Source of the DNA: Astropecten irregularis
Lineage: Eukaryota > Echinodermata > Asteroidea > Paxillosida > Astropectinidae
Assembly (NCBI GenBank): GCA_963971285.1
Contig: OZ020251.1
Span: 9,548,001 to 9,612,000, forward strand
Direction: 5' to 3'
Length of the DNA: 64,000 bases
Position numbers and translations under genes: made by a program. Below the pieces are notes generated by a model, which was not told the origin of the DNA, searched no databases, and was given only the letters and a program-made list of their open reading frames with translations. The first letter of the stretch is position 1, and each line of letters starts with the position of its first letter. Shown here in pieces: positions 15,818 through 64,000 of this stretch.

Positions 15818-15965
15818 GAACAAAGATAATAGACTACAAGAGATGAACAAGAGATAATTAGAGACACCATCAACGTAGGGCTGGAAGGCTCAGTTGGTAG
15901 AGCGCCTGTATGGTATTCAGGAGGTCACCGGTTTGAATCCCGCTCCAGTCAATTTTTCTTTGTTC
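15818..15965. mobile_element. tRNA-like MITE, single-core copy
   Basis: 148 bp with ends GAACAAAGATAATAGACT and, reversed, GAACAAAGAAAAATTGACT. The core at 15879-15950 is tRNA-like. Its 5' block (GACACCATCAACGTAGGG) matches the blocks in 3514-3787, so both are one family. Confidence 0.75.
15879..15950 (+). repeat. tRNA-like core with A and B boxes
   Basis: GGCTGGA pairs with TCCAGTC as a seven-pair acceptor stem (one G-T). GGCTCAGTTGGTAGAGCGC is A-box-like with a CTC/GAG D stem, and GGTTTGAATCC is B-box-like. The anticodon region gives only CCTG/CAGG with a nine-base loop, and the T stem is mismatched. It is tRNA-derived and is not called as a tRNA gene. Confidence 0.7.
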
Positions 15966-18909: not shown

Positions 18910-19472
18910 CCCTAGTGCACCTATCGGAAAGAATTACACTGATGACCATAATTTGTGCACAACTCTATAACCAACAGAGGGCGTTTTGAGCAAACTGGCT
19001 TTGTACAGTTTGTAGGTAAAAGAGCCCTATAAAACTCACTTTTCAGATATTCTACGCAAGTTTCCCACTCCTGAAATTGAGGTTTATCATAATTTGTATC
19101 CAATAAATTAACTCTTGGAGGATATAATCCTTTTTCCGTAATGGTGATCAGTGGAATTCTTTCCCATTTGCATTTGCACATTTCCGAGCACCCGAATGCT
19201 TCCGAAAACGTTGCTTCCGAAGACCTGCCGAAGATGACGTTCGTTGTGACGTCATAGGTCATTTAAATAAAGTAATAAAATCCACTTTTTGGCTCAGGTA
19301 TATACTGTTTCGTATTTTTTTCAGCGTTTCCAACCCTCTTGAAACCATTCTAAGGCGTTCCATGAGAAACAATGTCAAAATGTTGGCTACAACATACATA
19401 TCTGGAGCATTTTTGGTCATTACCAGATTTTTTTCTACGAAAGTAATTAAGAGTGTTCCGATAAAGCCCTAG
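18910..19472. mobile_element. Possible MITE (M2) abutting the satellite
   Basis: The left end CCCTAGTGCACCTATCGGAA resembles the reversed right end CCCTAGGGCTTTATCGGAA, with AATTAC a little further in on both sides. The match is imperfect, about 18 of 22. The right end meets the first base of the satellite array within the word CCCTAGGGG. No target duplication can be defined because of the abutment. Confidence 0.45.
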
Positions 19473-20922
19473 GGGTGCACCACACTAAATAAACTCCCAT
19501 TGACCTTAGTGTAAAATCCCTCAACTTCACAGTTCAAAAAAACCCATCCAGAAGTTTCTCAGTTGTTGGTGCAATAGTGTAAATGATAGTGTGAACTCTC
19601 ATCTACCCAATTCTTTTCAATTTTTGGTTGGGTAACCGATTGGATTTTTTGCTAATTGCCCCAAGAAAAAAACACCCCCGAAATGTCCTTCTTCCGTAAC
19701 CGACTTGCTACGAGTTTTCATGAAGCAACCCTCCACGTTCAAGACAATGTAGGACCGGATTTTAAACCAAAATATCTCAAGTCTCCACAACAGGCTGAAA
19801 CACTGAACCCCCAGGTTGTCATAACCAGTCAAAACTACACAATATATTAATTGCACGACCCCCCAAATTGCATATTTAAAAAACATTTGAGGGTACACAC
19901 ATTATGATAATCAGCTCGGCGCATTGATTTTTGAGCTATTTAGTGTGGTGCATCCTATAAGGGGGGTAAACTTTTTTAATTGGTTGTCCAATTAGGCTCA
20001 AAGTGTAGAGTTTATGACACTGAGCTCATATGTGAAAACAAAATTGAAAAATATTATTGCGTTTTTCTACGGCACGGCTTAATGTGTTAGGTCGTTGACC
20101 CGTGGGGGCCATACAAACGTGCACATTCTCCCTTATAATATTGTGTACACCCCATGGAAAGTCGGGCTCTGAATCCACATATTATTTCCTCACAAAGTTA
20201 TCTTATGGCTATTTTAGGATGCAATGATGCTCAGACCATTACATATAGTTTAATTAATCAAGGCGAGGGTGTCATTTCACATGGAAAAGTGGTGTAAGGT
20301 CAGGGTTGGCCTGTTTGGTTGTGGGGGGGGGGGGGGCGTTTAGGCTATTCCGTGGAATATTTCTGCCCCAGTATCCATATTAAGACATAATGATGAACTT
20401 TTTTTGGATTATTCAATGCATATTACATTTCCCCAAATTTCGCTGTCCTTGAGAATAATCATTTCCCCTCTGAAAAGTGAGAAAGAGGCGATTAGGGTTG
20501 TCAGCGTGTGGGCGGGGCTTGCTAGGGTTGGGTCTAGGTCTGGAGCCCCGGCTGGGGTTAGGGTTGGAATCAGAGCGATTTAGGGTTAAGAATTGGTCTT
20601 AGGGTTGAATTTTGGGGGCTAGGTTTACAATTTAGGGGATTGGGTTGGAATTTCGGCCGGCTAGGGTTACAATTTTGGGTCTAATGGGGTTAAAAGTTGG
20701 GCCACCTTCGTCTAAACAAAACTCGTAGGATGTAGAAAAGACAATGTAAGTTGAGTAATACAAGGTTTTATGCGTATTAGGATTGATGTTTTCAGGAAAT
20801 AATTAACAAAATCTGATGAGAAACTTGGTCTTATACAGTTTCTTTTCGTTCTCGCCTCTCACAACAGAGTGGTGGCGCTATCACAAAATGGCTACCGATG
20901 CGCCGCCATCTTGTGACCTATA
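19473..20922. repeat. Satellite unit 1 (long; poly-G 14)
   Basis: First unit. Its left neighbour is CCCTAG and not the usual GACCTATA, so unique DNA meets M1 at the terminal base. M1 occupies 19473-19955. Confidence 0.9.
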
Positions 20923-21405
20923 GGGTGCACCACACTAAATAAACTCCCATTGACCTTAGTGTAAAATCCCTCAACTTCACAGTTCAAAAAAACCCATCCA
21001 GAAGTTTCTCAGTTGTTGGTGCAATAGTGTAAATGATAGTGTGAACTCTCATCTACCCAATTCTTTTCAATTTTTGGTTGGGTAACCGATTGGATTTTTT
21101 GCTAATTGCCCCAAGAAAAAAACACCCCCGAAATGTCCTTCTTCCGTAACCGACTTGCTACGAGTTTTCATGAAGCAACCCTCCACGTTCAAGACAATGT
21201 AGGACCGGATTTTAAACCAAAATATCTCAAGTCTCCACAACAGGCTGAAACACTGAACCCCCAGGTTGTCATAACCAGTCAAAACTACACAATATATTAA
21301 TTGCACGACCCCCCAAATTGCATATTTAAAAAACATTTGAGGGTACACACATTATGATAATCAGCTCGGCGCATTGATTTTTGAGCTATTTAGTGTGGTG
21401 CATCC
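20923..21405. mobile_element. M1, a 483-bp MITE embedded in the satellite unit
   Basis: Ends GGGTGCACCACACTAAATA and, reversed, GGATGCACCACACTAAATA: 18 of 19 match. TATA lies on both sides. Satellite units without it read GACCTATAAGGGG where filled units read GACCTATA-M1-TATAAGGGG, so a 4-bp duplication and an empty site are both visible. A TA duplication with slightly longer ends would also fit, so the superfamily is open. The 93- and 64-codon frames inside have no recognisable domain. Twenty-three copies occur in the window, always at the same position. Confidence 0.9.
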
Positions 21406-21772
21406 TATAAGGGGGGTAAACTTTTTTAATTGGTTGTCCAATTAGGCTCAAAGTGTAGAGTTTATGACACTGAGCTCATATGTGAAAACAAAATTGAAAA
21501 ATATTATTGCGTTTTTCTACGGCACGGCTTAATGTGTTAGGTCGTTGACCCGTGGGGGCCATACAAACGTGCACATTCTCCCTTATAATATTGTGTACAC
21601 CCCATGGAAAGTCGGGCTCTGAATCCACATATTATTTCCTCACAAAGTTATCTTATGGCTATTTTAGGATGCAATGATGCTCAGACCATTACATATAGTT
21701 TAATTAATCAAGGCGAGGGTGTCATTTCACATGGAAAAGTGGTGTAAGGTCAGGGTTGGCCTGTTTGGTTGT

Positions 21773-21785
21773 GGGGGGGGGGGGG
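21773..21785 (+). repeat. Poly-G tract of the satellite core
   Basis: Thirteen G here; 11 to 18 in other units. It is the only length-variable site in the unit. Confidence 0.95.
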
Positions 21786-21939
21786 CGTTTAGGCTATTCC
21801 GTGGAATATTTCTGCCCCAGTATCCATATTAAGACATAATGATGAACTTTTTTTGGATTATTCAATGCATATTACATTTCCCCAAATTTCGCTGTCCTTG
21901 AGAATAATCATTTCCCCTCTGAAAAGTGAGAAAGAGGCG

Positions 21940-22150
21940 ATTAGGGTTGTCAGCGTGTGGGCGGGGCTTGCTAGGGTTGGGTCTAGGTCTGGAGCCCCGG
22001 CTGGGGTTAGGGTTGGAATCAGAGCGATTTAGGGTTAAGAATTGGTCTTAGGGTTGAATTTTGGGGGCTAGGTTTACAATTTAGGGGATTGGGTTGGAAT
22101 TTCGGCCGGCTAGGGTTACAATTTTGGGTCTAATGGGGTTAAAAGTTGGG
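21940..22150 (+). repeat. Telomere-like TAGGGTT block in the satellite core
   Basis: TAGGGTT occurs six times in about 180 bp, mixed with GGGTTGG, GGGGTTA and similar. All G runs are on the plus strand. The spacing is irregular, so this is not a telomere array, but the G runs could support G-quadruplexes. Confidence 0.8.
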
Positions 22151-22329
22151 CCACCTTCGTCTAAACAAAACTCGTAGGATGTAGAAAAGACAATGTAAGT
22201 TGAGTAATACAAGGTTTTATGCGTATTAGGATTGATGTTTTCAGGAAATAATTAACAAAATCTGATGAGAAACTTGGTCTTATACAGTTTCTTTTCGTTC
22301 TCGCCTCTCACAACAGAGTGGTGGCGCTA

Positions 22330-22365
22330 TCACAAAATGGCTACCGATGCGCCGCCATCTTGTGA
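22330..22365. repeat. Hairpin with two inverted ATGGC motifs beside the M1 site
   Basis: TCACAAAATGGC and GCCATCTTGTGA pair at 11 of 12 positions around a 12-nt loop. The right arm with its neighbours, GCCGCCATCTT, resembles a YY1 site. M1 inserted four bases further on. Confidence 0.7.
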
Positions 22366-22371
22366 CCTATA

Positions 22372-28167: not shown

Positions 28168-29617
28168 GGGTGCACCACACTAAATAAACTCCCATTGACC
28201 TTAGTGTAAAATCCCTCAACTTCACAGTTCAAAAAAACCCATCCAGAAGTTTCTCAGTTGTTGGTGCAATAGTGTAAATGATAGTGTGAACTCTCATCTA
28301 CCCAATTCTTTTCAATTTTTGGTTGGGTAACCGATTGGATTTTTTGCTAATTGCCCCAAGAAAAAAACACCCCCGAAATGTCCTTCTTCCGTAACCGACT
28401 TGCTACGAGTTTTCATGAAGCAACCCTCCACGTTCAAGACAATGTAGGACCGGATTTTAAACCAAAATATCTCAAGTCTCCACAACAGGCTGAAACACTG
28501 AACCCCCAGGTTGTCATAACCAGTCAAAACTACACAATATATTAATTGCACGACCCCCCAAATTGCATATTTAAAAAACATTTGAGGGTACACACATTAT
28601 GATAATCAGCTCGGCGCATTGATTTTTGAGCTATTTAGTGTGGTGCATCCTATAAGGGGGGTAAACTTTTTTAATTGGTTGTCCAATTAGGCTCAAAGTG
28701 TAGAGTTTATGACACTGAGCTCATATGTGAAAACAAAATTGAAAAATATTATTGCGTTTTTCTACGGCACGGCTTAATGTGTTAGGTCGTTGACCCGTGG
28801 GGGCCATACAAACGTGCACATTCTCCCTTATAATATTGTGTACACCCCATGGAAAGTCGGGCTCTGAATCCACATATTATTTCCTCACAAAGTTATCTTA
28901 TGGCTATTTTAGGATGCAATGATGCTCAGACCATTACATATAGTTTAATTAATCAAGGCGAGGGTGTCATTTCACATGGAAAAGTGGTGTAAGGTCAGGG
29001 TTGGCCTGTTTGGTTGTGGGGGGGGGGGGGGCGTTTAGGCTATTCCGTGGAATATTTCTGCCCCAGTATCCATATTAAGACATAATGATGAACTTTTTTT
29101 GGATTATTCAATGCATATTACATTTCCCCAAATTTCGCTGTCCTTGAGAATAATCATTTCCCCTCTGAAAAGTGAGAAAGAGGCGATTAGGGTTGTCAGC
29201 GTGTGGGCGGGGCTTGCTAGGGTTGGGTCTAGGTCTGGAGCCCCGGCTGGGGTTAGGGTTGGAATCAGAGCGATTTAGGGTTAAGAATTGGTCTTAGGGT
29301 TGAATTTTGGGGGCTAGGTTTACAATTTAGGGGATTGGGTTGGAATTTCGGCCGGCTAGGGTTACAATTTTGGGTCTAATGGGGTTAAAAGTTGGGCCAC
29401 CTTCGTCTAAACAAAACTCGTAGGATGTAGAAAAGACAATGTAAGTTGAGTAATACAAGGTTTTATGCGTATTAGGATTGATGTTTTCAGGAAATAATTA
29501 ACAAAATCTGATGAGAAACTTGGTCTTATACAGTTTCTTTTCGTTCTCGCCTCTCACAACAGAGTGGTGGCGCTATCACAAAATGGCTACCGATGCGCCG
29601 CCATCTTGTGACCTATA
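28168..29617. repeat. Satellite unit 7 (long; poly-G 14)
   Basis: 1450 bp; M1 at 28168-28650. Confidence 0.9.
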
Positions 29618-30579
29618 AGGGGGGTAAACTTTTTTAATTGGTTGTCCAATTAGGCTCAAAGTGTAGAGTTTATGACACTGAGCTCATATGTGAAAACAAA
29701 ATTGAAAAATATTATTGCGTTTTTCTACGGCACGGCTTAATGTGTTAGGTCGTTGACCCGTGGGGGCCATACAAACGTGCACATTCTCCCTTATAATATT
29801 GTGTACACCCCATGGAAAGTCGGGCTCTGAATCCACATATTATTTCCTCACAAAGTTATCTTATGGCTATTTTAGGATGCAATGATGCTCAGACCATTAC
29901 ATATAGTTTAATTAATCAAGGCGAGGGTGTCATTTCACATGGAAAAGTGGTGTAAGGTCAGGGTTGGCCTGTTTGGTTGTGGGGGGGGGGGGGCGTTTAG
30001 GCTATTCCGTGGAATATTTCTGCCCCAGTATCCATATTAAGACATAATGATGAACTTTTTTTGGATTATTCAATGCATATTACATTTCCCCAAATTTCGC
30101 TGTCCTTGAGAATAATCATTTCCCCTCTGAAAAGTGAGAAAGAGGCGATTAGGGTTGTCAGCGTGTGGGCGGGGCTTGCTAGGGTTGGGTCTAGGTCTGG
30201 AGCCCCGGCTGGGGTTAGGGTTGGAATCAGAGCGATTTAGGGTTAAGAATTGGTCTTAGGGTTGAATTTTGGGGGCTAGGTTTACAATTTAGGGGATTGG
30301 GTTGGAATTTCGGCCGGCTAGGGTTACAATTTTGGGTCTAATGGGGTTAAAAGTTGGGCCACCTTCGTCTAAACAAAACTCGTAGGATGTAGAAAAGACA
30401 ATGTAAGTTGAGTAATACAAGGTTTTATGCGTATTAGGATTGATGTTTTCAGGAAATAATTAACAAAATCTGATGAGAAACTTGGTCTTATACAGTTTCT
30501 TTTCGTTCTCGCCTCTCACAACAGAGTGGTGGCGCTATCACAAAATGGCTACCGATGCGCCGCCATCTTGTGACCTATA
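29618..30579. repeat. Satellite unit 8 (short, no M1; poly-G 13)
   Basis: 962 bp. Its left join reads GACCTATAAGGGGGG, the uninterrupted M1 target. Confidence 0.9.
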
Positions 30580-36376: not shown

Positions 36377-37826
36377 GGGTGCACCACACTAAATAAACTC
36401 CCATTGACCTTAGTGTAAAATCCCTCAACTTCACAGTTCAAAAAAACCCATCCAGAAGTTTCTCAGTTGTTGGTGCAATAGTGTAAATGATAGTGTGAAC
36501 TCTCATCTACCCAATTCTTTTCAATTTTTGGTTGGGTAACCGATTGGATTTTTTGCTAATTGCCCCAAGAAAAAAACACCCCCGAAATGTCCTTCTTCCG
36601 TAACCGACTTGCTACGAGTTTTCATGAAGCAACCCTCCACGTTCAAGACAATGTAGGACCGGATTTTAAACCAAAATATCTCAAGTCTCCACAACAGGCT
36701 GAAACACTGAACCCCCAGGTTGTCATAACCAGTCAAAACTACACAATATATTAATTGCACGACCCCCCAAATTGCATATTTAAAAAACATTTGAGGGTAC
36801 ACACATTATGATAATCAGCTCGGCGCATTGATTTTTGAGCTATTTAGTGTGGTGCATCCTATAAGGGGGGTAAACTTTTTTAATTGGTTGTCCAATTAGG
36901 CTCAAAGTGTAGAGTTTATGACACTGAGCTCATATGTGAAAACAAAATTGAAAAATATTATTGCGTTTTTCTACGGCACGGCTTAATGTGTTAGGTCGTT
37001 GACCCGTGGGGGCCATACAAACGTGCACATTCTCCCTTATAATATTGTGTACACCCCATGGAAAGTCGGGCTCTGAATCCACATATTATTTCCTCACAAA
37101 GTTATCTTATGGCTATTTTAGGATGCAATGATGCTCAGACCATTACATATAGTTTAATTAATCAAGGCGAGGGTGTCATTTCACATGGAAAAGTGGTGTA
37201 AGGTCAGGGTTGGCCTGTTTGGTTGTGGGGGGGGGGGGGGCGTTTAGGCTATTCCGTGGAATATTTCTGCCCCAGTATCCATATTAAGACATAATGATGA
37301 ACTTTTTTTGGATTATTCAATGCATATTACATTTCCCCAAATTTCGCTGTCCTTGAGAATAATCATTTCCCCTCTGAAAAGTGAGAAAGAGGCGATTAGG
37401 GTTGTCAGCGTGTGGGCGGGGCTTGCTAGGGTTGGGTCTAGGTCTGGAGCCCCGGCTGGGGTTAGGGTTGGAATCAGAGCGATTTAGGGTTAAGAATTGG
37501 TCTTAGGGTTGAATTTTGGGGGCTAGGTTTACAATTTAGGGGATTGGGTTGGAATTTCGGCCGGCTAGGGTTACAATTTTGGGTCTAATGGGGTTAAAAG
37601 TTGGGCCACCTTCGTCTAAACAAAACTCGTAGGATGTAGAAAAGACAATGTAAGTTGAGTAATACAAGGTTTTATGCGTATTAGGATTGATGTTTTCAGG
37701 AAATAATTAACAAAATCTGATGAGAAACTTGGTCTTATACAGTTTCTTTTCGTTCTCGCCTCTCACAACAGAGTGGTGGCGCTATCACAAAATGGCTACC
37801 GATGCGCCGCCATCTTGTGACCTATA
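36377..37826. repeat. Satellite unit 13 (long; poly-G 14)
   Basis: 1450 bp; M1 at 36377-36859. Confidence 0.9.
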
Positions 37827-38793
37827 AGGGGGGTAAACTTTTTTAATTGGTTGTCCAATTAGGCTCAAAGTGTAGAGTTTATGACACTGAGCTCATATGT
37901 GAAAACAAAATTGAAAAATATTATTGCGTTTTTCTACGGCACGGCTTAATGTGTTAGGTCGTTGACCCGTGGGGGCCATACAAACGTGCACATTCTCCCT
38001 TATAATATTGTGTACACCCCATGGAAAGTCGGGCTCTGAATCCACATATTATTTCCTCACAAAGTTATCTTATGGCTATTTTAGGATGCAATGATGCTCA
38101 GACCATTACATATAGTTTAATTAATCAAGGCGAGGGTGTCATTTCACATGGAAAAGTGGTGTAAGGTCAGGGTTGGCCTGTTTGGTTGTGGGGGGGGGGG
38201 GGGGGGGCGTTTAGGCTATTCCGTGGAATATTTCTGCCCCAGTATCCATATTAAGACATAATGATGAACTTTTTTTGGATTATTCAATGCATATTACATT
38301 TCCCCAAATTTCGCTGTCCTTGAGAATAATCATTTCCCCTCTGAAAAGTGAGAAAGAGGCGATTAGGGTTGTCAGCGTGTGGGCGGGGCTTGCTAGGGTT
38401 GGGTCTAGGTCTGGAGCCCCGGCTGGGGTTAGGGTTGGAATCAGAGCGATTTAGGGTTAAGAATTGGTCTTAGGGTTGAATTTTGGGGGCTAGGTTTACA
38501 ATTTAGGGGATTGGGTTGGAATTTCGGCCGGCTAGGGTTACAATTTTGGGTCTAATGGGGTTAAAAGTTGGGCCACCTTCGTCTAAACAAAACTCGTAGG
38601 ATGTAGAAAAGACAATGTAAGTTGAGTAATACAAGGTTTTATGCGTATTAGGATTGATGTTTTCAGGAAATAATTAACAAAATCTGATGAGAAACTTGGT
38701 CTTATACAGTTTCTTTTCGTTCTCGCCTCTCACAACAGAGTGGTGGCGCTATCACAAAATGGCTACCGATGCGCCGCCATCTTGTGACCTATA
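37827..38793. repeat. Satellite unit 14 (short, no M1; poly-G 18)
   Basis: 967 bp. It has the longest poly-G run in the window. Confidence 0.9.
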
Positions 38794-44602: not shown

Positions 44603-46052
44603 GGGTGCACCACACTAAATAAACTCCCATTGACCTTAGTGTAAAATCCCTCAACTTCACAGTTCAAAAAAACCCATCCAGAAGTTTCTCAGTTGTTGGT
44701 GCAATAGTGTAAATGATAGTGTGAACTCTCATCTACCCAATTCTTTTCAATTTTTGGTTGGGTAACCGATTGGATTTTTTGCTAATTGCCCCAAGAAAAA
44801 AACACCCCCGAAATGTCCTTCTTCCGTAACCGACTTGCTACGAGTTTTCATGAAGCAACCCTCCACGTTCAAGACAATGTAGGACCGGATTTTAAACCAA
44901 AATATCTCAAGTCTCCACAACAGGCTGAAACACTGAACCCCCAGGTTGTCATAACCAGTCAAAACTACACAATATATTAATTGCACGACCCCCCAAATTG
45001 CATATTTAAAAAACATTTGAGGGTACACACATTATGATAATCAGCTCGGCGCATTGATTTTTGAGCTATTTAGTGTGGTGCATCCTATAAGGGGGGTAAA
45101 CTTTTTTAATTGGTTGTCCAATTAGGCTCAAAGTGTAGAGTTTATGACACTGAGCTCATATGTGAAAACAAAATTGAAAAATATTATTGCGTTTTTCTAC
45201 GGCACGGCTTAATGTGTTAGGTCGTTGACCCGTGGGGGCCATACAAACGTGCACATTCTCCCTTATAATATTGTGTACACCCCATGGAAAGTCGGGCTCT
45301 GAATCCACATATTATTTCCTCACAAAGTTATCTTATGGCTATTTTAGGATGCAATGATGCTCAGACCATTACATATAGTTTAATTAATCAAGGCGAGGGT
45401 GTCATTTCACATGGAAAAGTGGTGTAAGGTCAGGGTTGGCCTGTTTGGTTGTGGGGGGGGGGGGGGCGTTTAGGCTATTCCGTGGAATATTTCTGCCCCA
45501 GTATCCATATTAAGACATAATGATGAACTTTTTTTGGATTATTCAATGCATATTACATTTCCCCAAATTTCGCTGTCCTTGAGAATAATCATTTCCCCTC
45601 TGAAAAGTGAGAAAGAGGCGATTAGGGTTGTCAGCGTGTGGGCGGGGCTTGCTAGGGTTGGGTCTAGGTCTGGAGCCCCGGCTGGGGTTAGGGTTGGAAT
45701 CAGAGCGATTTAGGGTTAAGAATTGGTCTTAGGGTTGAATTTTGGGGGCTAGGTTTACAATTTAGGGGATTGGGTTGGAATTTCGGCCGGCTAGGGTTAC
45801 AATTTTGGGTCTAATGGGGTTAAAAGTTGGGCCACCTTCGTCTAAACAAAACTCGTAGGATGTAGAAAAGACAATGTAAGTTGAGTAATACAAGGTTTTA
45901 TGCGTATTAGGATTGATGTTTTCAGGAAATAATTAACAAAATCTGATGAGAAACTTGGTCTTATACAGTTTCTTTTCGTTCTCGCCTCTCACAACAGAGT
46001 GGTGGCGCTATCACAAAATGGCTACCGATGCGCCGCCATCTTGTGACCTATA
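44603..46052. repeat. Satellite unit 19 (long; poly-G 14)
   Basis: 1450 bp; M1 at 44603-45085. Confidence 0.9.
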
Positions 46053-46234
46053 AGGGGGGTAAACTTTTTTAATTGGTTGTCCAATTAGGCTCAAAGTGTA
46101 GAGTTTATGACACTGAGCTCATATGTGAAAACAAAATTGAAAAATATTATTGCGTTTTTCTACGGCACGGCTTAATGTGTTAGGTCGTTGACCCGTGGGG
46201 GCCATACAAACGTGCACATTCTCCCTTATAATAT

Positions 46235-46694
46235 TGTTGTGATTTTACATGATTGCATTGTTGTATTAATTAATTATCCTAAAGCCCGCCGAGCGCTCAT
46301 GCCGCCGCTAGCTGCACGCAAGCTTCACTTGACCATGATTGTATATTGCCGCTGCGTGCAGAGAAGCGTTCGCTGCGCGAGCTGCGCTAGCGCCCTCTTG
46401 CGATGCCGCGCGTGTAATTGCTTTGCCGCGCCACACGCGCGCTGCGCTGCTCATGTCTTATGTTTCCTCCTTTATATTTGTTGTGATAATGTTTTGTTCT
46501 TTATTCGATGTTCTTGATATACAAATGTGTAATGATTTAGAATGTTGACAGTTTGATAGTTGGACAGCTTGGCTGAAGTTGCGGTCAGGTAATTTTGGTC
46601 TGCCAAATAAATAAGTGATTACTGTTGTTGATGCAAAATATCGTGTCAGTTTTCATTCTTTAATTGCCTCCTCCCGACGGCCGAATTCACCACA
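46235..46694 (+). repeat. 5' LTR
   Basis: 460 bp, TGTTGTGATTTTACATG to AATTCACCACA. It carries AATAAA at 46606-46611, a likely poly(A) signal, and a TTTATATT (46471-46478) that could serve as a TATA element. A GC-rich stretch with many GCGC words fills 46290-46450. Confidence 0.95.
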
Positions 46695-46697
46695 AAT

Positions 46698-46714
46698 TGG
46701 TGGCAGCGGTGGGA
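46698..46714 (+). promoter_or_regulatory. Primer-binding site, tRNA-Leu type
   Basis: TGGTGGCAGCGGTGGGA, three bases after the LTR, is complementary to CCA plus the acceptor and T-arm end of animal leucine tRNAs (3' end ..TCCCACCGCTGCCA). It primes minus-strand DNA synthesis. Confidence 0.85.
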
Positions 46715-46875
46715 CGATATTTGCCGTTGGGACGATTGGATTATACAGCCGTTTGGATATATGTGACGTAGGGCCTATGGATATATATTTGCCGTGGATT
46801 TCTTACCTGGATCTGTTTGTGGCTTATGTTCTACGGATTTCGAAGGAGTAATTGGATACACGCTTTGGATACAAA

Positions 46876-48111
46876 ATGGCCCGTAGGAATAAATCGAAGG
46901 ATATCAGCTGTGTGGGAGACGCAAACGAGACAACCGTTGATATGGACGTCAGAATGGAAACAGCCGACAGTGACACCAATGCAAGTGAGACACAAGCGCT
47001 GAAGAATCGACTCATGGAATCGGAAAAGCGTGCACAACTCTTGGAGACACGACTCGCCCGTCTTGAATCGAGCAACGGTGCACAGGAAAAAGGTAGGCCT
47101 ATGTACGATCCGATTATCAATGTGATTGATGCACAGAACAGTTATCGTGAACACCATATGGAACATGATGACGTGGAATTTCCCCACATCCGTCCGAGAA
47201 GCGTAAGTCACTTTTCGAGGAGACAGGAAGACGCAACGCCACGACCGAAGATGGTTACATTTGATGGAAAGGAAGATTGGGTGAATTTTGAAATTCCTTT
47301 CAAGAGGATCGCATTGCGAGCTAGATGGTCTGATGAAGAGAGCCTTGAGCAGCTGTATCAGTGTATACGCGGTGATGCAATGCAATTTGTCAGCGGATTA
47401 ACTAGCATCGTTCAAAACGACTACACCATGCTGATGGCATCATTGAAGAGGCGGTTTGGAGACAGAGCTCTGCCGGAGACATATAGGGCTCAGCTACACA
47501 CACTGAGGCAGAACCCCAAAGAATCTACAGCCGAGTTTGCTGCCAAGATACGCGCCTTTGTTGTGAAAGCTTATCCTGCAGCACCGGAAGACCTACAGGA
47601 GAAGTTGAGCGTTGAGCACTTCCTAAAGGGGCTACCAGACTCACAGACGGGATATGATGTGATGGTGAAACAACCTCGAGATCTGGATGAAGCCGAGCAC
47701 ATGGTTGCAGTTCATGAAAGCTTCAAGGCAAACTTCAATCGAAAGTCCGTGCGTGCTGTGAGTTCCATTGAAGAGGGGCAGGAACCGATGGCCGAAGTAC
47801 GCCGGGTAAGTGATAAACGCCTGGTGACGGAAGAGCGTTTGCAAGTGTTTGGACGAGAGTTGAAGCAAACAATCACTACTGATGTGACTGAGAGAGTCAC
47901 TGCCGTCATCGCTCCTGAGCTCAAAGAAATAAAAACGATGTTGAACACTCAGTCTGGACAACGCCGTAGCTACAGTCGACAGAACATCACTTGTCATGCT
48001 TGTGGGAAAGTGGGCCACATCAAGCGCTTTTGCACTGAAGGCAAAACCAGCGATCAACAGGAACGACCACCACCTGCGAATTCGTCGTCCGACAATCATC
48101 AGGGAAACTAA
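46876..48111 (+). CDS. gag: Gag polyprotein with CCHC zinc knuckle
   Basis: 411 residues from the ATG at 46876 (AAAATGG, good context); the open frame extends 8 codons upstream to a TTG that I do not take as the start. Residues 1-60 are charged and include a likely coiled coil (ALKNRLMESEKRAQLLETRL). A central capsid-like region contains FDGKEDWVNFEIPFKR and later YRAQLHTLRQNPKESTAEFA, the retrotransposon Gag pattern seen across Ty3/gypsy elements. CHACGKVGHIKRFC near residue 373 is a C-x2-C-x4-H-x4-C knuckle for RNA binding. Gag forms the particle that packages the element's RNA. The TAA at 48109 is preceded by a -1 frameshift heptamer. Confidence 0.93.
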   Translation: MARRNKSKDISCVGDANETTVDMDVRMETADSDTNASETQALKNRLMESEKRAQLLETRLARLESSNGAQEKGRPMYDPIINVIDAQNSYREHHMEHDDVEFPHIRPRSVSHFSRRQEDATPRPKMVTFDGKEDWVNFEIPFKRIALRARWSDEESLEQLYQCIRGDAMQFVSGLTSIVQNDYTMLMASLKRRFGDRALPETYRAQLHTLRQNPKESTAEFAAKIRAFVVKAYPAAPEDLQEKLSVEHFLKGLPDSQTGYDVMVKQPRDLDEAEHMVAVHESFKANFNRKSVRAVSSIEEGQEPMAEVRRVSDKRLVTEERLQVFGRELKQTITTDVTERVTAVIAPELKEIKTMLNTQSGQRRSYSRQNITCHACGKVGHIKRFCTEGKTSDQQERPPPANSSSDNHQGN

Positions 48112-48143
48112 GCAGGGCCGAGCCTACCAGCCAGGGTTCGGCC
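48102..48143 (+). promoter_or_regulatory. -1 ribosomal frameshift signal (slippery site plus stem-loop)
   Basis: GGGAAAC at 48102-48108 is split by the gag frame as G GGA AAC, the canonical X XXY YYZ form, and the gag stop TAA follows at once. Slipping back one base gives GGG AAA CTA, which is the pol frame, open from 48039 onward. After a 7-nt spacer, GGCCGA (48116-48121) pairs with TCGGCC (48138-48143), with further GCC/GGG pairing possible inside. Slippery heptamer, spacer and stem match known viral and retrotransposon signals. Function is inferred from sequence. Confidence 0.8.
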
Positions 48144-48206
48144 GGGCAAAGTATTGGAAAACAATGTACTATTGAAATCAGACGTGCTGGTGAAGGTGGA
48201 TATACA

Positions 48207-51200
48207 ATGCTTGCCCCTTTGGAAATATTCGGGAAACAATTTCAAGCTGTTGTAGATACGGGGGCCGAAGTAACAATTATATCTGAAAGGATCTACCATG
48301 ATTTACCTACGGAGCGTCGTCCTGCTCTACAGCAAAGTCCCATTGCCTTGGAGATTGCAGAAGCTGGAAAAAAGATGAATGTGGCAGGAGTTGTAAATTT
48401 GCACTTGAAGATCGCGGATTATGACTTCGAATGGCCTGTATATGTTGCACCGATACGGGACGACGTATTGCTTGGATGTGATTTCATACACGCTAATGAC
48501 ATTGGAATACGCACTCGTTATGGTATTCAAGTGGGAGGAGAATGGATCCCGTGTGAACTGGTTGAAGGAAACACACGTGTTGCACGAGTTCAGGTCAGTG
48601 AAAATGTTGTCATACCTGCCCGAAGTGAATTTACCTTGCCATGTAAAGTTGCCGGAAGGGATCATGCTGACACGAGTTTTTGTGTTGTTGAACCCGTGGA
48701 ATTCTCCGAGAAATTACCTGTCATGTGTGCCCGATCATTAGTGGACCCAAGTAATGACTTGATACCTGTTCGTGTAGTAAATTCATCGAATTCACCGATT
48801 AAACTGACTAAAAACACTGATGTTGGTGAAATACATCCGGCAGACGCTGTGCAGGAAGTTGCTGCAAACGTATTGGATGAAATTGATGCAGCGACGCAGA
48901 CGAGTTCCATATGCAGGGTACATAAGAAAGATGGTGTTTCCAGTTCCACTTCAGAAACTGAATCTACTAACGGATCATTGATGTTACCCGACTATTTGAA
49001 GGAACTACACCAACAAGCTTGTGGGAATATAACGCAACCTGAAAACCAGCTGGAACTGGCAAAACTGCTGGAAAAGCACAAAGAGGCGTTTGCAAGAAAC
49101 AAAGAAGATTTGGGAAATTGTACCGCCGTGAAACACAGAATTAACACAGCGGGGGCAGCTCCTATACGCCAGCCAGTGCGAAGGACACCTCAAGGATTCG
49201 AGGGAGAAGAGGAGAAATATCTACAAGACCAACTGAAGGCAGGTGTAGTCAAACCATCGTGTTCAGAGTGGGCGTCGCCAGTGGTACTTGTTCGCAAAAA
49301 GGATGGCACAGTACGTTGGTGTATTGACTATAGGAAACTCAACGATGTAACTATTAAGGACGCTTATCCACTTCCGCGGATAGATACATGCTTGGATTGC
49401 CTGGCTGGTGCAAGATTATTCTCAACACTTGACTTGCAGAGTGGATATTGGCAGATTGCGATGGATGACAAGGATCAAGCGAAAACGGCGTTCATCACAA
49501 GATATGGATTATTCGAATACACCAAGATGCCGTTTGGACTCTGCAATGCACCGAGTACTTTTCAACGCTGCATGGAACTGCTACTGTCGGGCCTGCAATG
49601 GAAAACCTTGCTCATTTACCTCGACGATGTAATCGTTCACAGCGCGACGTTTGAGGAACACATGGATAGGCTGGGAGATGTACTGTCACGACTGGAGAGG
49701 GCTGGACTGAAACTCAAGCCAAGTAAGTGTCACCTGATGCAAAGTGAAGTTCTATTCCTTGGACATGTGGTAGGACAGGATGGAGTTCGGACCAACCCTA
49801 AACTTGTGCAAACTGTGTCAAACTGGAAAAGACCTACAGATCCCCGTCAAGTACAACAGTTTCTTGGATTGTGTAACTACTACCGACGATTTGTACCTCA
49901 TTTTGGAAACATAGCTCATCCACTCTATCAGCTGACTGAGAAGGGAGTGAGATTTGAGTGGACAGATGAATGTGAAGCGGCATTTCATCAGCTGAAAGTG
50001 TCTCTAACCAATTCACAGGTGCTTGCCTATCCCCGACCAGGCGGAAAATACATCATAGACACTGATGCTTCGAACATTGGAATTGGTGCTGTGTTATCCC
50101 AAGAGCAAGACGGTGAAGAACGAGTTATTGCATACGCCAGTAAGCGATTGGATAAACGACAAAGACGATACTGTGTGACGCGGCGCGAGCTGTTGGCCTG
50201 TGTAACTTTCATACAGCAGTTTCGTCACTACTTACTTGGACAGGCATTTGACCTACGAACGGACCATAACTCATTGAGATGGCTGTTCAGTTTTAAGGAA
50301 CCTCAGGATCAGCTAGCCCGATGGCTGGAGGTGCTAGCTCAGTATCGGTTCCGTATACTTCACCGACCAGGTGTGAAACATGGAAATGCAGACGCACTCT
50401 CAAGGAAGTACTGTGAGCCACTACAATGTGATTGCTTCGTCGGCGGATGCCAAGTGTACGCTCTACCATGTGGCGGCTGCAAATATTGCCAAAGACAACA
50501 TGAGGCGTGGAACGAGTTCCAGACGGAGACTGATGACGTTATTCCTTTGGCAATGAGACGAGTCACAAGTCCAGACATCAAGTCGGTGGACAATGATGTG
50601 AATCAGATGTGTACCCCGACAGAAGGAGGAAGAACCCTCTATTCAAGACTGTTGCTGACCATAATGATGATATTCGAATTCATTGTGAGCTGGTGTAAAT
50701 CTACAAGGATCAAACACGAGTGCCAAACCAATGAAACTGTCTCGATGTGGAATAGAAGACTGACATCTACAACATGGATAAAGAATTATCTGCCCAGTGA
50801 ATTTGCCAAGTTACAGAAGAGCGACGCAGTACTCGGGAAGTTGCACCGCTGGAAGGACAACGGTGGACGCCCGGTGAGGGATACTGCTGCAGCGTTTTCT
50901 CCAGAGGTGAGAAGATACTGGCTGAATTGGGAGCTGCTGGAACGACACCAGGGGGTGCTGTACAAGCGCTGGATCTCATCGAAAGGTGAGCCGGATAGAT
51001 TACAGCTGCTGATCCCCAAAGCACTTCTTAAAGAAGTCCTGAACGAGTGCCACAATTCCATCACAGCTGCCCATATGGGGGTCGCTAAGACTACGGCAAA
51101 AGTGAAACAGAGGTACTACTGGTACCGGATGCAGGCGGATATTAAAGAATACATTCGAAGTTGTAGTGTCTGTGGAGCCAAGAAAATGAACCACAGGAAA

Positions 51201-52241
51201 CCAAGGGCATCACTTCAAGACTACAGAGTGGGAGCACCCTTAGACCGTGTTTCATTGGATGTAATGGGCCCGTTTCCACGGTCCGACCGAGACAACCAGT
51301 ATGTGCTTGTGATCGGAGACAATTTCACGAGATGGATGGAAGCATATCCCATCCCAAACCAACAGGCAGAAACAATAGCAAAGCGACTGGTGCATGACTT
51401 TATCAGTCGATATGGATCCCCACTGGAAATACACAGCGATCAAGGTCGTAGCTTTGAGAGTGAGCTCTTCAAGGAAACGTGCCGTCTGTTGGATGTCGCC
51501 AAAACAAGAACTTCCCCGTACCACCCGTCTTCGAATGGAATTATTGAGAGGTTCAACGCAACTCTCGTCGCCATGATCAGGAGTTATGTGGATGAAAACC
51601 AGAAGAACTGGGACGAGCATATTCCCTTGTTGACTGCAGCATACCGGAGCACAGTTCACCCTGCAACTGGATTTACCCCCAACATGCTGATGCTAGGAAG
51701 AGAGGTGAATCTTCCAATCGACGTGTTGTATCCCAAGCCAGCGAGTGAGGAGAGTGATGTAACCACGACGGACTACGTGACGGAATTACGACACCGAATG
51801 GAGAATTGTCATGCCCTAACTAGGAAACACTTAGGTCAATACGCGGAACGTCAAAAACGAAATTATGATACGCGTTTGGTGGAACGAAACTACAACCCCG
51901 GTGATCTAGTGTATTTCCTAGACACAAACAGACACAAAGGGAAAAGCCCTAAGCTACAGATTCCCTGGAAAGGACCCTGTGTGGTGACGTCGCGTATGAC
52001 TGACTGTATATACAAGATAAGGTGCAAGAAGGGCGAGAAGGTTCTACACCATGATAGACTCCGGCCCTATACGGCAAGCCAGCTTCCTAAGTGGGTCACG
52101 AAACAGCGGAACATGATGACTAGTCCCCGTGGACCAGTCGACTCCACACAAATTGCCAGTGACGTTCTGTTTGCGACGGAAGACAGTGTTGGTGGACCGG
52201 TCACCCGTTCTCGGACTCGTGCGCTAGAGACATTGAATTAA
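48207..52241 (+). CDS. pol: Pol polyprotein: protease, RT, RNase H, integrase
   Basis: 1344 residues from the first ATG; the frame is open upstream to 48039 and overlaps gag, so translation more likely enters by -1 frameshifting. Protease: DTGAEV at residues 17-22 and VLLGCDF near 87. Reverse transcriptase: FSTLDLQSGYW with catalytic D409, and YLDD at 471-474 (D473, D474). RNase H: DTDAS at 618-622 and DHNSL at 686. Integrase: zinc module H949-x6-H956-x29-C986-x2-C989, then D1018, D1078 and E1114 (D-x35-E), followed by a GPY-like WKGPCVV. All catalytic residues are present and no stop or frameshift interrupts it. Odd points: a cysteine-rich stretch (CDCFVGGCQVYALPCGGCKY) after RNase H and a hydrophobic segment near residues 809-831. 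Confidence 0.95.
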   Translation: MLAPLEIFGKQFQAVVDTGAEVTIISERIYHDLPTERRPALQQSPIALEIAEAGKKMNVAGVVNLHLKIADYDFEWPVYVAPIRDDVLLGCDFIHANDIGIRTRYGIQVGGEWIPCELVEGNTRVARVQVSENVVIPARSEFTLPCKVAGRDHADTSFCVVEPVEFSEKLPVMCARSLVDPSNDLIPVRVVNSSNSPIKLTKNTDVGEIHPADAVQEVAANVLDEIDAATQTSSICRVHKKDGVSSSTSETESTNGSLMLPDYLKELHQQACGNITQPENQLELAKLLEKHKEAFARNKEDLGNCTAVKHRINTAGAAPIRQPVRRTPQGFEGEEEKYLQDQLKAGVVKPSCSEWASPVVLVRKKDGTVRWCIDYRKLNDVTIKDAYPLPRIDTCLDCLAGARLFSTLDLQSGYWQIAMDDKDQAKTAFITRYGLFEYTKMPFGLCNAPSTFQRCMELLLSGLQWKTLLIYLDDVIVHSATFEEHMDRLGDVLSRLERAGLKLKPSKCHLMQSEVLFLGHVVGQDGVRTNPKLVQTVSNWKRPTDPRQVQQFLGLCNYYRRFVPHFGNIAHPLYQLTEKGVRFEWTDECEAAFHQLKVSLTNSQVLAYPRPGGKYIIDTDASNIGIGAVLSQEQDGEERVIAYASKRLDKRQRRYCVTRRELLACVTFIQQFRHYLLGQAFDLRTDHNSLRWLFSFKEPQDQLARWLEVLAQYRFRILHRPGVKHGNADALSRKYCEPLQCDCFVGGCQVYALPCGGCKYCQRQHEAWNEFQTETDDVIPLAMRRVTSPDIKSVDNDVNQMCTPTEGGRTLYSRLLLTIMMIFEFIVSWCKSTRIKHECQTNETVSMWNRRLTSTTWIKNYLPSEFAKLQKSDAVLGKLHRWKDNGGRPVRDTAAAFSPEVRRYWLNWELLERHQGVLYKRWISSKGEPDRLQLLIPKALLKEVLNECHNSITAAHMGVAKTTAKVKQRYYWYRMQADIKEYIRSCSVCGAKKMNHRKPRASLQDYRVGAPLDRVSLDVMGPFPRSDRDNQYVLVIGDNFTRWMEAYPIPNQQAETIAKRLVHDFISRYGSPLEIHSDQGRSFESELFKETCRLLDVAKTRTSPYHPSSNGIIERFNATLVAMIRSYVDENQKNWDEHIPLLTAAYRSTVHPATGFTPNMLMLGREVNLPIDVLYPKPASEESDVTTTDYVTELRHRMENCHALTRKHLGQYAERQKRNYDTRLVERNYNPGDLVYFLDTNRHKGKSPKLQIPWKGPCVVTSRMTDCIYKIRCKKGEKVLHHDRLRPYTASQLPKWVTKQRNMMTSPRGPVDSTQIASDVLFATEDSVGGPVTRSRTRALETLN

Positions 52242-53324
52242 CTGACCCAGTAACTGCATTCCATAGGCAACGAGGAGCCGCAGAGACATGGAATCACAGT
52301 AAGCAGAAACATTTAGCCACTTTTCATATACATCCAACCAATTTCAAAGCTTGTTGAAATTAATCTCGTGTAAAACAACGTCATGCCATTTGCATGAAAT
52401 GTAGTGAGGCTATAGTATAAGTTGTGTTGCTTTAGAACTTGTGAATTTTGTAAACGATTCATCTGTGACAAGTCAATCCCTGCGATTTAATACCTAGAGA
52501 AAACCGATTTTGCAGTGTTGATACAGTTACCCAAAGATGTTTTATGATGTTTGGAATTGCGTTCTCTTTAAAGAGGGGGAGAGAAAAGGCTGATGTCGAC
52601 GCAATGAATTAAATTGTATTTAAATTGATAAATTGTAATTTGAATATTGTATATTGACAGCCCTTCGCCAACAACCGGTTATTTACTGACTGTTGTCGAC
52701 TAAAGATGGATTATTGATGAACAGCATTCGCTAATATCGATATTCCTTGTTGAATATCTGTTTTCAGCCTTTGAATTTTAATGAGCACGTGGTTTGGATG
52801 AATTGTCATCACAGTGAAAGAACTTGACAATTTAGGTCATTGTTATTGATTTTGCGATATATATGTAACTGAATGTGTATTGTTGTACATGCAGTAGTTA
52901 TAATTATTGAAGACAGCTTACGTCATGCTATATGTAACCTTTGACTACATAAACGTGTATATAGTAACTTTTGGATGTTTTTGATCATTACTGCTTTTAG
53001 CATTGCTCACACAAGTCATGCTGTGCTTAATGTGCACAATGTTGTAAGAAATTGTTATTGTGTATTGTCACGATTGATGGAAGGTTTACTGCTATTTTGG
53101 TTTTATTATACTATGAGTAAATTATATGAGTTTGAATTTGGCGAACTGGTTTTTCAGTGACTAAAACAGATTGAGAGAAAATGTCTCAATTATTCCTGCT
53201 GACTTGCATTGTTAATCTGACATAAGTTCATTTAAGATGTTTTCTATGTTTTGTTAATTGACTGCAATTTTTAATTAATGTTGTTTACCTCTTCCACTAA
53301 GTACCGGTAGGCCACGCTCTTACG
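52242..53324 (+). other. Non-coding region between pol and the 3' LTR
   Basis: AT-rich, with short frames only (longest about 60 codons). No envelope-like gene with signal peptide and membrane anchor is present. It probably serves as 3' untranslated sequence. Confidence 0.7.
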
Positions 53325-53337
53325 AAGTGGGGGAGAG
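53325..53337 (+). promoter_or_regulatory. Polypurine tract
   Basis: AAGTGGGGGAGAG ends exactly at the first base of the 3' LTR, where plus-strand DNA synthesis would be primed. One T interrupts the purines. Confidence 0.85.
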
Positions 53338-53797
53338 TGTTGTGATTTTACATGATTGCATTGTTGTATTAATTAATTATCCTAAAGCCCGCCGAGCGCT
53401 CATGCCGCCGCTAGCTGCACGCAAGCTTCACTTGACCATGATTGTATATTGCCGCTGCGTGCAGAGAAGCGTTCGCTGCGCGAGCTGCGCTAGCGCCCTC
53501 TTGCGATGCCGCGCGTGTAATTGCTTTGCCGCGCCACACGCGCGCTGCGCTGCTCATGTCTTATGTTTCCTCCTTTATATTTGTTGTGATAATGTTTTGT
53601 TCTTTATTCGATGTTCTTGATATACAAATGTGTAATGATTTAGAATGTTGACAGTTTGATAGTTGGACAGCTTGGCTGAAGTTGCGGTCAGGTAATTTTG
53701 GTCTGCCAAATAAATAAGTGATTACTGTTGTTGATGCAAAATATCGTGTCAGTTTTCATTCTTTAATTGCCTCCTCCCGACGGCCGAATTCACCACA
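53338..53797 (+). repeat. 3' LTR
   Basis: 460 bp. I found no difference from the 5' LTR. Poly(A) signal AATAAA at 53709-53714. Confidence 0.95.
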
Positions 53798-54584
53798 ATA
53801 TTGTGTACACCCCATGGAAAGTCGGGCTCTGAATCCACATATTATTTCCTCACAAAGTTATCTTATGGCTATTTTAGGATGCAATGATGCTCAGACCATT
53901 ACATATAGTTTAATTAATCAAGGCGAGGGTGTCATTTCACATGGAAAAGTGGTGTAAGGTCAGGGTTGGCCTGTTTGGTTGTGGGGGGGGGGGGGGGGCG
54001 TTTAGGCTATTCCGTGGAATATTTCTGCCCCAGTATCCATATTAAGACATAATGATGAACTTTTTTTGGATTATTCAATGCATATTACATTTCCCCAAAT
54101 TTCGCTGTCCTTGAGAATAATCATTTCCCCTCTGAAAAGTGAGAAAGAGGCGATTAGGGTTGTCAGCGTGTGGGCGGGGCTTGCTAGGGTTGGGTCTAGG
54201 TCTGGAGCCCCGGCTGGGGTTAGGGTTGGAATCAGAGCGATTTAGGGTTAAGAATTGGTCTTAGGGTTGAATTTTGGGGGCTAGGTTTACAATTTAGGGG
54301 ATTGGGTTGGAATTTCGGCCGGCTAGGGTTACAATTTTGGGTCTAATGGGGTTAAAAGTTGGGCCACCTTCGTCTAAACAAAACTCGTAGGATGTAGAAA
54401 AGACAATGTAAGTTGAGTAATACAAGGTTTTATGCGTATTAGGATTGATGTTTTCAGGAAATAATTAACAAAATCTGATGAGAAACTTGGTCTTATACAG
54501 TTTCTTTTCGTTCTCGCCTCTCACAACAGAGTGGTGGCGCTATCACAAAATGGCTACCGATGCGCCGCCATCTTGTGACCTATA

Positions 54585-55544
54585 AGGGGGGTAAACTTTT
54601 TTAATTGGTTGTCCAATTAGGCTCAAAGTGTAGAGTTTATGACACTGAGCTCATATGTGAAAACAAAATTGAAAAATATTATTGCGTTTTTCTACGGCAC
54701 GGCTTAATGTGTTAGGTCGTTGACCCGTGGGGGCCATACAAACGTGCACATTCTCCCTTATAATATTGTGTACACCCCATGGAAAGTCGGGCTCTGAATC
54801 CACATATTATTTCCTCACAAAGTTATCTTATGGCTATTTTAGGATGCAATGATGCTCAGACCATTACATATAGTTTAATTAATCAAGGCGAGGGTGTCAT
54901 TTCACATGGAAAAGTGGTGTAAGGTCAGGGTTGGCCTGTTTGGTTGTGGGGGGGGGGGCGTTTAGGCTATTCCGTGGAATATTTCTGCCCCAGTATCCAT
55001 ATTAAGACATAATGATGAACTTTTTTTGGATTATTCAATGCATATTACATTTCCCCAAATTTCGCTGTCCTTGAGAATAATCATTTCCCCTCTGAAAAGT
55101 GAGAAAGAGGCGATTAGGGTTGTCAGCGTGTGGGCGGGGCTTGCTAGGGTTGGGTCTAGGTCTGGAGCCCCGGCTGGGGTTAGGGTTGGAATCAGAGCGA
55201 TTTAGGGTTAAGAATTGGTCTTAGGGTTGAATTTTGGGGGCTAGGTTTACAATTTAGGGGATTGGGTTGGAATTTCGGCCGGCTAGGGTTACAATTTTGG
55301 GTCTAATGGGGTTAAAAGTTGGGCCACCTTCGTCTAAACAAAACTCGTAGGATGTAGAAAAGACAATGTAAGTTGAGTAATACAAGGTTTTATGCGTATT
55401 AGGATTGATGTTTTCAGGAAATAATTAACAAAATCTGATGAGAAACTTGGTCTTATACAGTTTCTTTTCGTTCTCGCCTCTCACAACAGAGTGGTGGCGC
55501 TATCACAAAATGGCTACCGATGCGCCGCCATCTTGTGACCTATA
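54585..55544. repeat. Satellite unit 21 (short, no M1; poly-G 11)
   Basis: 960 bp. Directly follows another short unit, the only such pair in the window. Confidence 0.9.
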
Positions 55545-61341: not shown

Positions 61342-62790
61342 GGGTGCACCACACTAAATAAACTCCCATTGACCTTAGTGTAAAATCCCTCAACTTCACA
61401 GTTCAAAAAAACCCATCCAGAAGTTTCTCAGTTGTTGGTGCAATAGTGTAAATGATAGTGTGAACTCTCATCTACCCAATTCTTTTCAATTTTTGGTTGG
61501 GTAACCGATTGGATTTTTTGCTAATTGCCCCAAGAAAAAAACACCCCCGAAATGTCCTTCTTCCGTAACCGACTTGCTACGAGTTTTCATGAAGCAACCC
61601 TCCACGTTCAAGACAATGTAGGACCGGATTTTAAACCAAAATATCTCAAGTCTCCACAACAGGCTGAAACACTGAACCCCCAGGTTGTCATAACCAGTCA
61701 AAACTACACAATATATTAATTGCACGACCCCCCAAATTGCATATTTAAAAAACATTTGAGGGTACACACATTATGATAATCAGCTCGGCGCATTGATTTT
61801 TGAGCTATTTAGTGTGGTGCATCCTATAAGGGGGGTAAACTTTTTTAATTGGTTGTCCAATTAGGCTCAAAGTGTAGAGTTTATGACACTGAGCTCATAT
61901 GTGAAAACAAAATTGAAAAATATTATTGCGTTTTTCTACGGCACGGCTTAATGTGTTAGGTCGTTGACCCGTGGGGGCCATACAAACGTGCACATTCTCC
62001 CTTATAATATTGTGTACACCCCATGGAAAGTCGGGCTCTGAATCCACATATTATTTCCTCACAAAGTTATCTTATGGCTATTTTAGGATGCAATGATGCT
62101 CAGACCATTACATATAGTTTAATTAATCAAGGCGAGGGTGTCATTTCACATGGAAAAGTGGTGTAAGGTCAGGGTTGGCCTGTTTGGTTGTGGGGGGGGG
62201 GGGGCGTTTAGGCTATTCCGTGGAATATTTCTGCCCCAGTATCCATATTAAGACATAATGATGAACTTTTTTTGGATTATTCAATGCATATTACATTTCC
62301 CCAAATTTCGCTGTCCTTGAGAATAATCATTTCCCCTCTGAAAAGTGAGAAAGAGGCGATTAGGGTTGTCAGCGTGTGGGCGGGGCTTGCTAGGGTTGGG
62401 TCTAGGTCTGGAGCCCCGGCTGGGGTTAGGGTTGGAATCAGAGCGATTTAGGGTTAAGAATTGGTCTTAGGGTTGAATTTTGGGGGCTAGGTTTACAATT
62501 TAGGGGATTGGGTTGGAATTTCGGCCGGCTAGGGTTACAATTTTGGGTCTAATGGGGTTAAAAGTTGGGCCACCTTCGTCTAAACAAAACTCGTAGGATG
62601 TAGAAAAGACAATGTAAGTTGAGTAATACAAGGTTTTATGCGTATTAGGATTGATGTTTTCAGGAAATAATTAACAAAATCTGATGAGAAACTTGGTCTT
62701 ATACAGTTTCTTTTCGTTCTCGCCTCTCACAACAGAGTGGTGGCGCTATCACAAAATGGCTACCGATGCGCCGCCATCTTGTGACCTATA
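61342..62790. repeat. Satellite unit 26 (long; poly-G 13)
   Basis: 1449 bp; M1 at 61342-61824. Confidence 0.9.
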
Positions 62791-64000
62791 GGGTGCACCA
62801 CACTAAATAAACTCCCATTGACCTTAGTGTAAAATCCCTCAACTTCACAGTTCAAAAAAACCCATCCAGAAGTTTCTCAGTTGTTGGTGCAATAGTGTAA
62901 ATGATAGTGTGAACTCTCATCTACCCAATTCTTTTCAATTTTTGGTTGGGTAACCGATTGGATTTTTTGCTAATTGCCCCAAGAAAAAAACACCCCCGAA
63001 ATGTCCTTCTTCCGTAACCGACTTGCTACGAGTTTTCATGAAGCAACCCTCCACGTTCAAGACAATGTAGGACCGGATTTTAAACCAAAATATCTCAAGT
63101 CTCCACAACAGGCTGAAACACTGAACCCCCAGGTTGTCATAACCAGTCAAAACTACACAATATATTAATTGCACGACCCCCCAAATTGCATATTTAAAAA
63201 ACATTTGAGGGTACACACATTATGATAATCAGCTCGGCGCATTGATTTTTGAGCTATTTAGTGTGGTGCATCCTATAAGGGGGGTAAACTTTTTTAATTG
63301 GTTGTCCAATTAGGCTCAAAGTGTAGAGTTTATGACACTGAGCTCATATGTGAAAACAAAATTGAAAAATATTATTGCGTTTTTCTACGGCACGGCTTAA
63401 TGTGTTAGGTCGTTGACCCGTGGGGGCCATACAAACGTGCACATTCTCCCTTATAATATTGTGTACACCCCATGGAAAGTCGGGCTCTGAATCCACATAT
63501 TATTTCCTCACAAAGTTATCTTATGGCTATTTTAGGATGCAATGATGCTCAGACCATTACATATAGTTTAATTAATCAAGGCGAGGGTGTCATTTCACAT
63601 GGAAAAGTGGTGTAAGGTCAGGGTTGGCCTGTTTGGTTGTGGGGGGGGGGGGGCGTTTAGGCTATTCCGTGGAATATTTCTGCCCCAGTATCCATATTAA
63701 GACATAATGATGAACTTTTTTTGGATTATTCAATGCATATTACATTTCCCCAAATTTCGCTGTCCTTGAGAATAATCATTTCCCCTCTGAAAAGTGAGAA
63801 AGAGGCGATTAGGGTTGTCAGCGTGTGGGCGGGGCTTGCTAGGGTTGGGTCTAGGTCTGGAGCCCCGGCTGGGGTTAGGGTTGGAATCAGAGCGATTTAG
63901 GGTTAAGAATTGGTCTTAGGGTTGAATTTTGGGGGCTAGGTTTACAATTTAGGGGATTGGGTTGGAATTTCGGCCGGCTAGGGTTACAATTTTGGGTCTA
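62791..64000. repeat. Satellite unit 27 (long; poly-G 13), cut by window end
   Basis: M1 at 62791-63273. The window ends inside the telomere-like block. Confidence 0.9.

Follow-up and report, generated by a model that had tools for sequence, protein, structure and literature searches.

We found that the head-to-tail array on the forward strand of the analysed window (64,000 nucleotides of Astropecten irregularis, C15:9548001-9612000), which runs from position 19473 to the window end, is very probably a multimer, (LTDR-INT)n with the LTDR absent at some junctions, of a non-autonomous KolobokP-type composite DNA transposon; the array probably grew in place. The LTDR, a terminal direct repeat, is called M below and the INT is called C. 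Elsewhere in the genome, M ends form the boundaries of M-C-M elements and of several multimers, with 4-bp target duplications on their outer sides. KolobokP is a kind of element already known; the member described here is non-autonomous and has grown to satellite size. The features of the window are as follows.

19469..19472, + strand: CTAG directly before the first M, presumed left copy of a 4-bp target duplication
19473..64000, + strand: array, very probably a multimer, of LTDR-INT units with the LTDR missing at four junctions (from the unit alignment)
19473..19955, + strand: first terminal direct repeat M (LTDR), 483 bp, GG...CC with inverted ends; start of the array
20923..21405, + strand: typical M copy (LTDR), of which the window has 23
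21406..22371, + strand: typical C copy (INT), 966 bp, starting with TATAAGGGGGG and ending with CCTATA
29605..29624, + strand: C-C junction without M, with a single TATA
37814..37833, + strand: C-C junction without M
46040..46059, + strand: C-C junction without M, in a unit later hit by an LTR element
46235..53797, + strand: LTR retrotransposon, 7.56 kb, in the third short unit (45730)
54572..54591, + strand: C-C junction without M

The aligned units comprise 22 full ones (1447-1453 bp), four short ones that start at 29295, 37504, 45730 and 54262 (960-967 bp, with the insert in the third left out), an incomplete unit at the left end and a last piece of 84 bp, or about 37 kb net of satellite repeat DNA in the window. 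The near-identical tandem array reported in the initial annotation is real, and its description of the unit as a transposon-plus-core composite, with two unit types in one array, agrees with the full and short units seen here. Besides the length of a poly-G run (11-18) and the presence or absence of a 487-bp block, the alignment contained exactly two substitutions, one in unit 39924 (column 186) and one in unit 56669 (column 1255), again as previously described. The array extends 6572 bp past the window to C15:9618572, where it is cut 53 bp into a C without M, and 28 M and 32 C starts were counted in the whole array including this part. The 487 bp that distinguish full from short units correspond to the 483 bp of M plus 4 bp. 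M starts with GGGTGCACC and ends with GGTGCATCC, and its GG...CC ends contain a perfect inverted stretch of 16 bp from the fourth base on. C is flanked by TATA on both sides, and an M-C-M monomer measures 1932 bp. No coding frame was recognised in the C of the window. Degenerate TTAGGG-like stretches were observed within C (21406-22371).

The left edge of the array is the exact left end of M, preceded by CTAG. Such an edge is odd for a satellite that M once jumped into, and we therefore searched the whole genome (475.7 Mb, 168 contigs); the right copy of the duplication cannot be checked for the window array, which breaks off within C on that side. The start of C alone gave 318 matches genome-wide with at most one mismatch, and the reversed control gave none. 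In the DNA searches, a subset of the candidates was scored (40 of 344 in one search, 40 of 1595 in another), and both ends were read for 11 composites from the part of the 318 C starts that was examined. These included M-C-M with both M intact at five loci (C21:6.33M, C27, C24, C12 and C21:11.25M), M-C-C-M at one locus (C19), M-C-M-C-M at three loci (C21:12.10M, C8 and C14), and a 34.7-kb array of approximately 28 cores at C18:4.952-4.986M (both ends and pieces read), which has CAAA on either side. Given the 13 C-C junctions in it, the C18 array is predicted to consist of about 15 M-C units, 13 C units and a last M; the summed lengths of these parts miss the measured length by about 25 bp. The eleventh composite, at C10, is an M-C-M whose right M is internally deleted (216 + 33 bp kept). 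With this deleted M included, each of the 22 outer ends read was an M end. Except for C10, whose flanks (TGAC and TATA) show no duplication and count against the multimer reading, the composites had perfect 4-bp target duplications at the exact M ends (TGAC, ATAG, TTCG, TATA, CTAG, TTGT, CTAG, TTGG, TTGC and CAAA; 10 of 11), each with a chance of about 1 in 256 if equal base use is assumed. Another array (from C1:467396 on) breaks off in a stretch of N, so that the assembly gives a minimum for its length. A single solo M was read, at C14, with 94% identity and TTCG on both sides (the larger search scored 40 of 1595 candidates); that there was only one counts against the KolobokP-type reading. 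The order at this site (C14:8503000-8512500) is composite, TTCG, diverged solo M, TTCG, with TTCG occurring three times in all. It seems that the exact duplication of the earlier insertion served as the target of the later one, and this suggests that M ends attract insertion.

According to the portions of Kojima & Bao (2022, PMC9587614) consulted, KolobokP elements are composite-like DNA transposons with the structure LTDR-INT-LTDR. Their LTDRs are about 450 or 660 bp long (families with 473 and 480 bp were published) and have inverted ends of their own, 11-18 bp, with 5'-RR...YY-3' termini; target duplications of 3-5 bp surround monomers and multimers, solo LTDRs occur, and INT-INT junctions have a micro-deletion of 3-4 bp. 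In a clam family, TATA is present at the start and end of the INT and a single TATA remains at INT-INT. Coding members encode a transposase as well as a His-Me finger nuclease, the latter downstream on the opposite strand, while non-autonomous families of oyster measure 1738-3261 bp. The elements described here show the same LTDR-INT-LTDR order (five M-C-M, three M-C-M-C-M and one M-C-C-M), a terminal repeat whose 483 bp and GG...CC inverted ends fit the LTDR size and the RR...YY termini, 4-bp duplications with the one exception at C10, and one TATA kept at 60 C-C junctions, as in the INT-INT micro-deletion; a coding member with a transposase, an opposite-strand nuclease and a homologous LTDR is also present in this genome (a dimer on C12, see below). 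They differ in the size of the arrays, with about 28 and 32 cores, as well as in the regular M-C-C repeat that two arrays show. The word "satellite" is absent from the main text of PMC9587614, and no account of satellite-size KolobokP arrays was found among the open-licence papers listed for Kolobok/KolobokP, one of which (PMC5139131) contains both the words Kolobok and satellite.

Because coding KolobokP members carry a His-Me nuclease, the genome was searched for that nuclease. The Pfam profile PF05551 for this nuclease gave 18 matches above the cut-off here and none in 14 control genomes. Among the regions concerned, C12:16753214-16762577, read in pieces, is a dimer with the spacing repeat, inside, repeat, inside, repeat. 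Its three LTDRs are about 480 bp long (the second 99.8% and the third 99.4% identical to the first), its INT starts with TATAAG and ends with CTATA, and CGAT is duplicated on both outer sides. A frame of 548 aa, in the one transposase copy read, matches PF20700 (2.2e-46); the nuclease is located downstream of this frame on the opposite strand (around C12:16.754M), and the two nuclease matches are 4437 bp apart. The Pfam name of PF20700 is Mutator, which counts against a KolobokP reading of the transposase, whose named relatives include Mytilus and Saccostrea proteins. On its anatomy, nuclease and transposase frame, we assign the dimer as a putative coding element of the KolobokP type. M matched its LTDR at 68% over 178 columns (E 4e-21), with 86.8 bits vs a maximum of 28.1 among 200 mononucleotide shuffles. 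This homology and the anatomy of the dimer indicate that the window element, itself non-autonomous, is related to a coding KolobokP-type element present in this genome. Close relatives of the C12 transposase came from short public contigs, several of which were 4.1-4.5 kb, approximately one coding element long. A (CCCTAA)n stretch was also seen in the coding relative (about L075:110-143, where L075 is a piece of C12:16753214-16762577).

These data bear on an origin in which a free MITE landed at TATA in one unit of an older C satellite and the filled unit then spread by unequal exchange, as the initial annotation had implied by a separate MITE that seeded or invaded the satellite. When the core and M were searched in the genome they were found together, as dispersed M-C-M with 4-bp duplications, which supports the composite and goes against a separate MITE. 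Single-TATA C-C junctions beside TATA-M-TATA, the M alone with its 4-bp duplication at C14 and the right end of the window array, which lies in C and also counts against the multimer reading, would all suit an inserted MITE; against it, M ends form every outer end of the 11 composites read (the deleted right M of C10 included) as well as the left end of the window array, and the coding relative has homologous terminal repeats. The TATA beside C does resemble a duplication made by insertion of M, yet it is also found at both INT ends of the coding relative and of the clam KolobokP family (PMC9587614, in the portion consulted). We consider a MITE in an older satellite very improbable, and M as a MITE with TATA as its target is overturned by the KolobokP anatomy (same source) and the C12 dimer. 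A miniature LTR retrotransposon (TRIM), with M as LTR, C as the inside and tandem copies made by LTR exchange, is hardly credible. Although it would account for the 4-bp duplications and for insertion-specific variants common to the terminal repeats, as in new LTRs, and tandem TRIM arrays have been published (PMC7215508, portion consulted), the ends of M are GGG...ATCC with long inverted ends and not TG...CA, no stretch resembling a primer site or a polypurine tract was seen by eye beside M, TATA is present at the start and end of C, and M is homologous to the LTDRs of a transposase-coding element.

The short units were analysed through their C-C junctions, which keep one TATA instead of two. 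With up to two mismatches allowed, 60 sites were detected at 10 loci, all 60 without mismatch, and they occurred in arrays of both main M sequence types. The mixture of full and short units is thus probably older than the window array, and the earlier view that the array lets the steps of its origin be read was not borne out; nor do the arrays read support the "empty" unit as the ancestral type. With regard to spacing, the first three short units in the window are 8209 and 8226 bp apart, the C-C junction recurs three times at 2413 bp in C20, and in C1:448-464k the interval is 2410-2411 bp except for a single one of 962 bp; two arrays show a regular M-C-C repeat. Short units are unevenly spaced in C18, C23 and C1:38.67M, which counts against a multimer growing in place. 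Nevertheless, the fixed spacing in some arrays and the occurrence with both M types show that the M-less junction was copied by amplification, at least in part. Its origin may be either the loss of one M, as proposed in PMC9587614 (portion consulted), or a junction in which M was never present. We rejected the idea that short units arise mainly by ongoing precise excision, since the 22 composite outer ends read keep M (one internally deleted) and the spacing in C20 and C1:448-464k is fixed; the three irregular arrays and the M-less right end of the window array count against this rejection.

Further analysis concerned the similarity of copies within insertions. In C27, C12 and C19, both terminal M share variants absent from other insertions, and at C21:11.25M one insertion-specific variant is common to both; M copies read inside one array (C18, C23 and C30) likewise share variants. 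Private differences are few, one at C19 and one on each side at C21:11.25M. Over nine loci, excluding C10 (right M deleted), C18 (right M partial) and the arrays, left and right M differed by a total of 3, compared with a shuffled mean of 41.7, and 3 of 100000 shuffles were as low; at the five informative loci, the true pairing was the single best of 120. In each of the three M-C-M-C-M, the two cores are the same in substitutions within the locus and different between loci. Either both M of a pair came from one template at insertion or conversion made them alike later. Along the window array, neighbouring units are similar in poly-G length (70 of 200000 shuffles as good), and the lengths shift stepwise along parts of it. 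These lengths may contain homopolymer errors, although independent errors are an unlikely cause since they would not make neighbours alike, and the similarity of neighbours speaks for growth in place.

An alternative within the KolobokP type is that arrays were born at once, from a circle of a single M and a single C amplified by rolling circle into a concatemer that was inserted via two M ends. Consistent with this idea are the within-locus identity and between-locus difference of the M-C-M-C-M cores, the variants shared by terminal repeats, the C18 array lying inside one duplication, and the circles proposed for KolobokP (PMC9587614, portion consulted). However, conversion after insertion accounts for the same identity, and the stepwise poly-G change and the differing unit patterns suit growth in place; we regard birth at once as rather unlikely. 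If the array is a KolobokP-type multimer growing in place, a transposase of the C12 type or a close one would recognise the outer ends of two direct M copies and insert M-C-M. Unequal exchange between the direct repeats would then lengthen the insertion, set off perhaps by a cut of the nuclease or by recombination of M-C circles (one M plus one C) with a copy already in place, and exchange together with conversion would keep the copies alike. The missing-M junctions may have been made when an M was lost together with one TATA, and would then have been copied with the rest. It is conceivable, if on balance doubtful, that array birth and concerted evolution are coded by the element and not due to host recombination, either through amplified M-C circles laid between one duplication pair or through a homing-type nuclease that drives in-place growth and homogenisation. 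The insertion-specific variants common to terminal repeats and the fixed short-unit spacing in some arrays are new to us relative to the literature consulted.

Several known systems are comparable, as described in the consulted portions of the respective papers. In the coral CMITE (PMC2872659), MITE-like elements and the DNA between them are tandemly repeated with high similarity, but CMITE has TTAA sites, is linked to piggyBac-like transposons, and its spaced array is not described there as moving as one unit. Xenopus miDNA4 and Xstir are MITE-linked satellite DNA (PMC12628747, PMC9659126) in which repeats inside a MITE were amplified, whereas here the MITE-like M serves as the terminal repeat of an element that is tandemly repeated in full. 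In tandem TRIM/LTR arrays such as Cassandra (PMC7215508), terminal repeat and inside alternate in tandem; those are retrotransposons, in contrast to the DNA transposon described here. The path from mobile element to satellite has mostly been inferred from old arrays. The present genome contains one young element as single copies, as dimers and in arrays with as many as 32 cores, together with a coding relative, with many ends of element copies still marked by target duplications, and it allows a direct test of the routes to KolobokP multimers, i.e., unequal exchange, circles and nuclease-induced repair.

The LTR retrotransposon in the third short unit is separate from the composite and younger than the unit that it hit. 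It has gag, protease, reverse transcriptase and integrase domains, long gag and pol frames, and an ATAT duplication (by eye), and its two 460-bp LTRs are without mismatch, which indicates a recent insertion. Viral-contig and phage searches found nothing, and Pfam searches of the other frames in the flanks gave nothing relevant. Structured RNA genes, ribosomal or other, were rejected for the unit, since Rfam at gathering scores returned only two tRNA-like matches, both in the left flank (3664-3736 on the - strand and 15879-15951 on the + strand), neither of which was called by ARAGORN. Stretches overlapping both of these matches recur in the right flank, and they are perhaps tRNA-derived SINEs.
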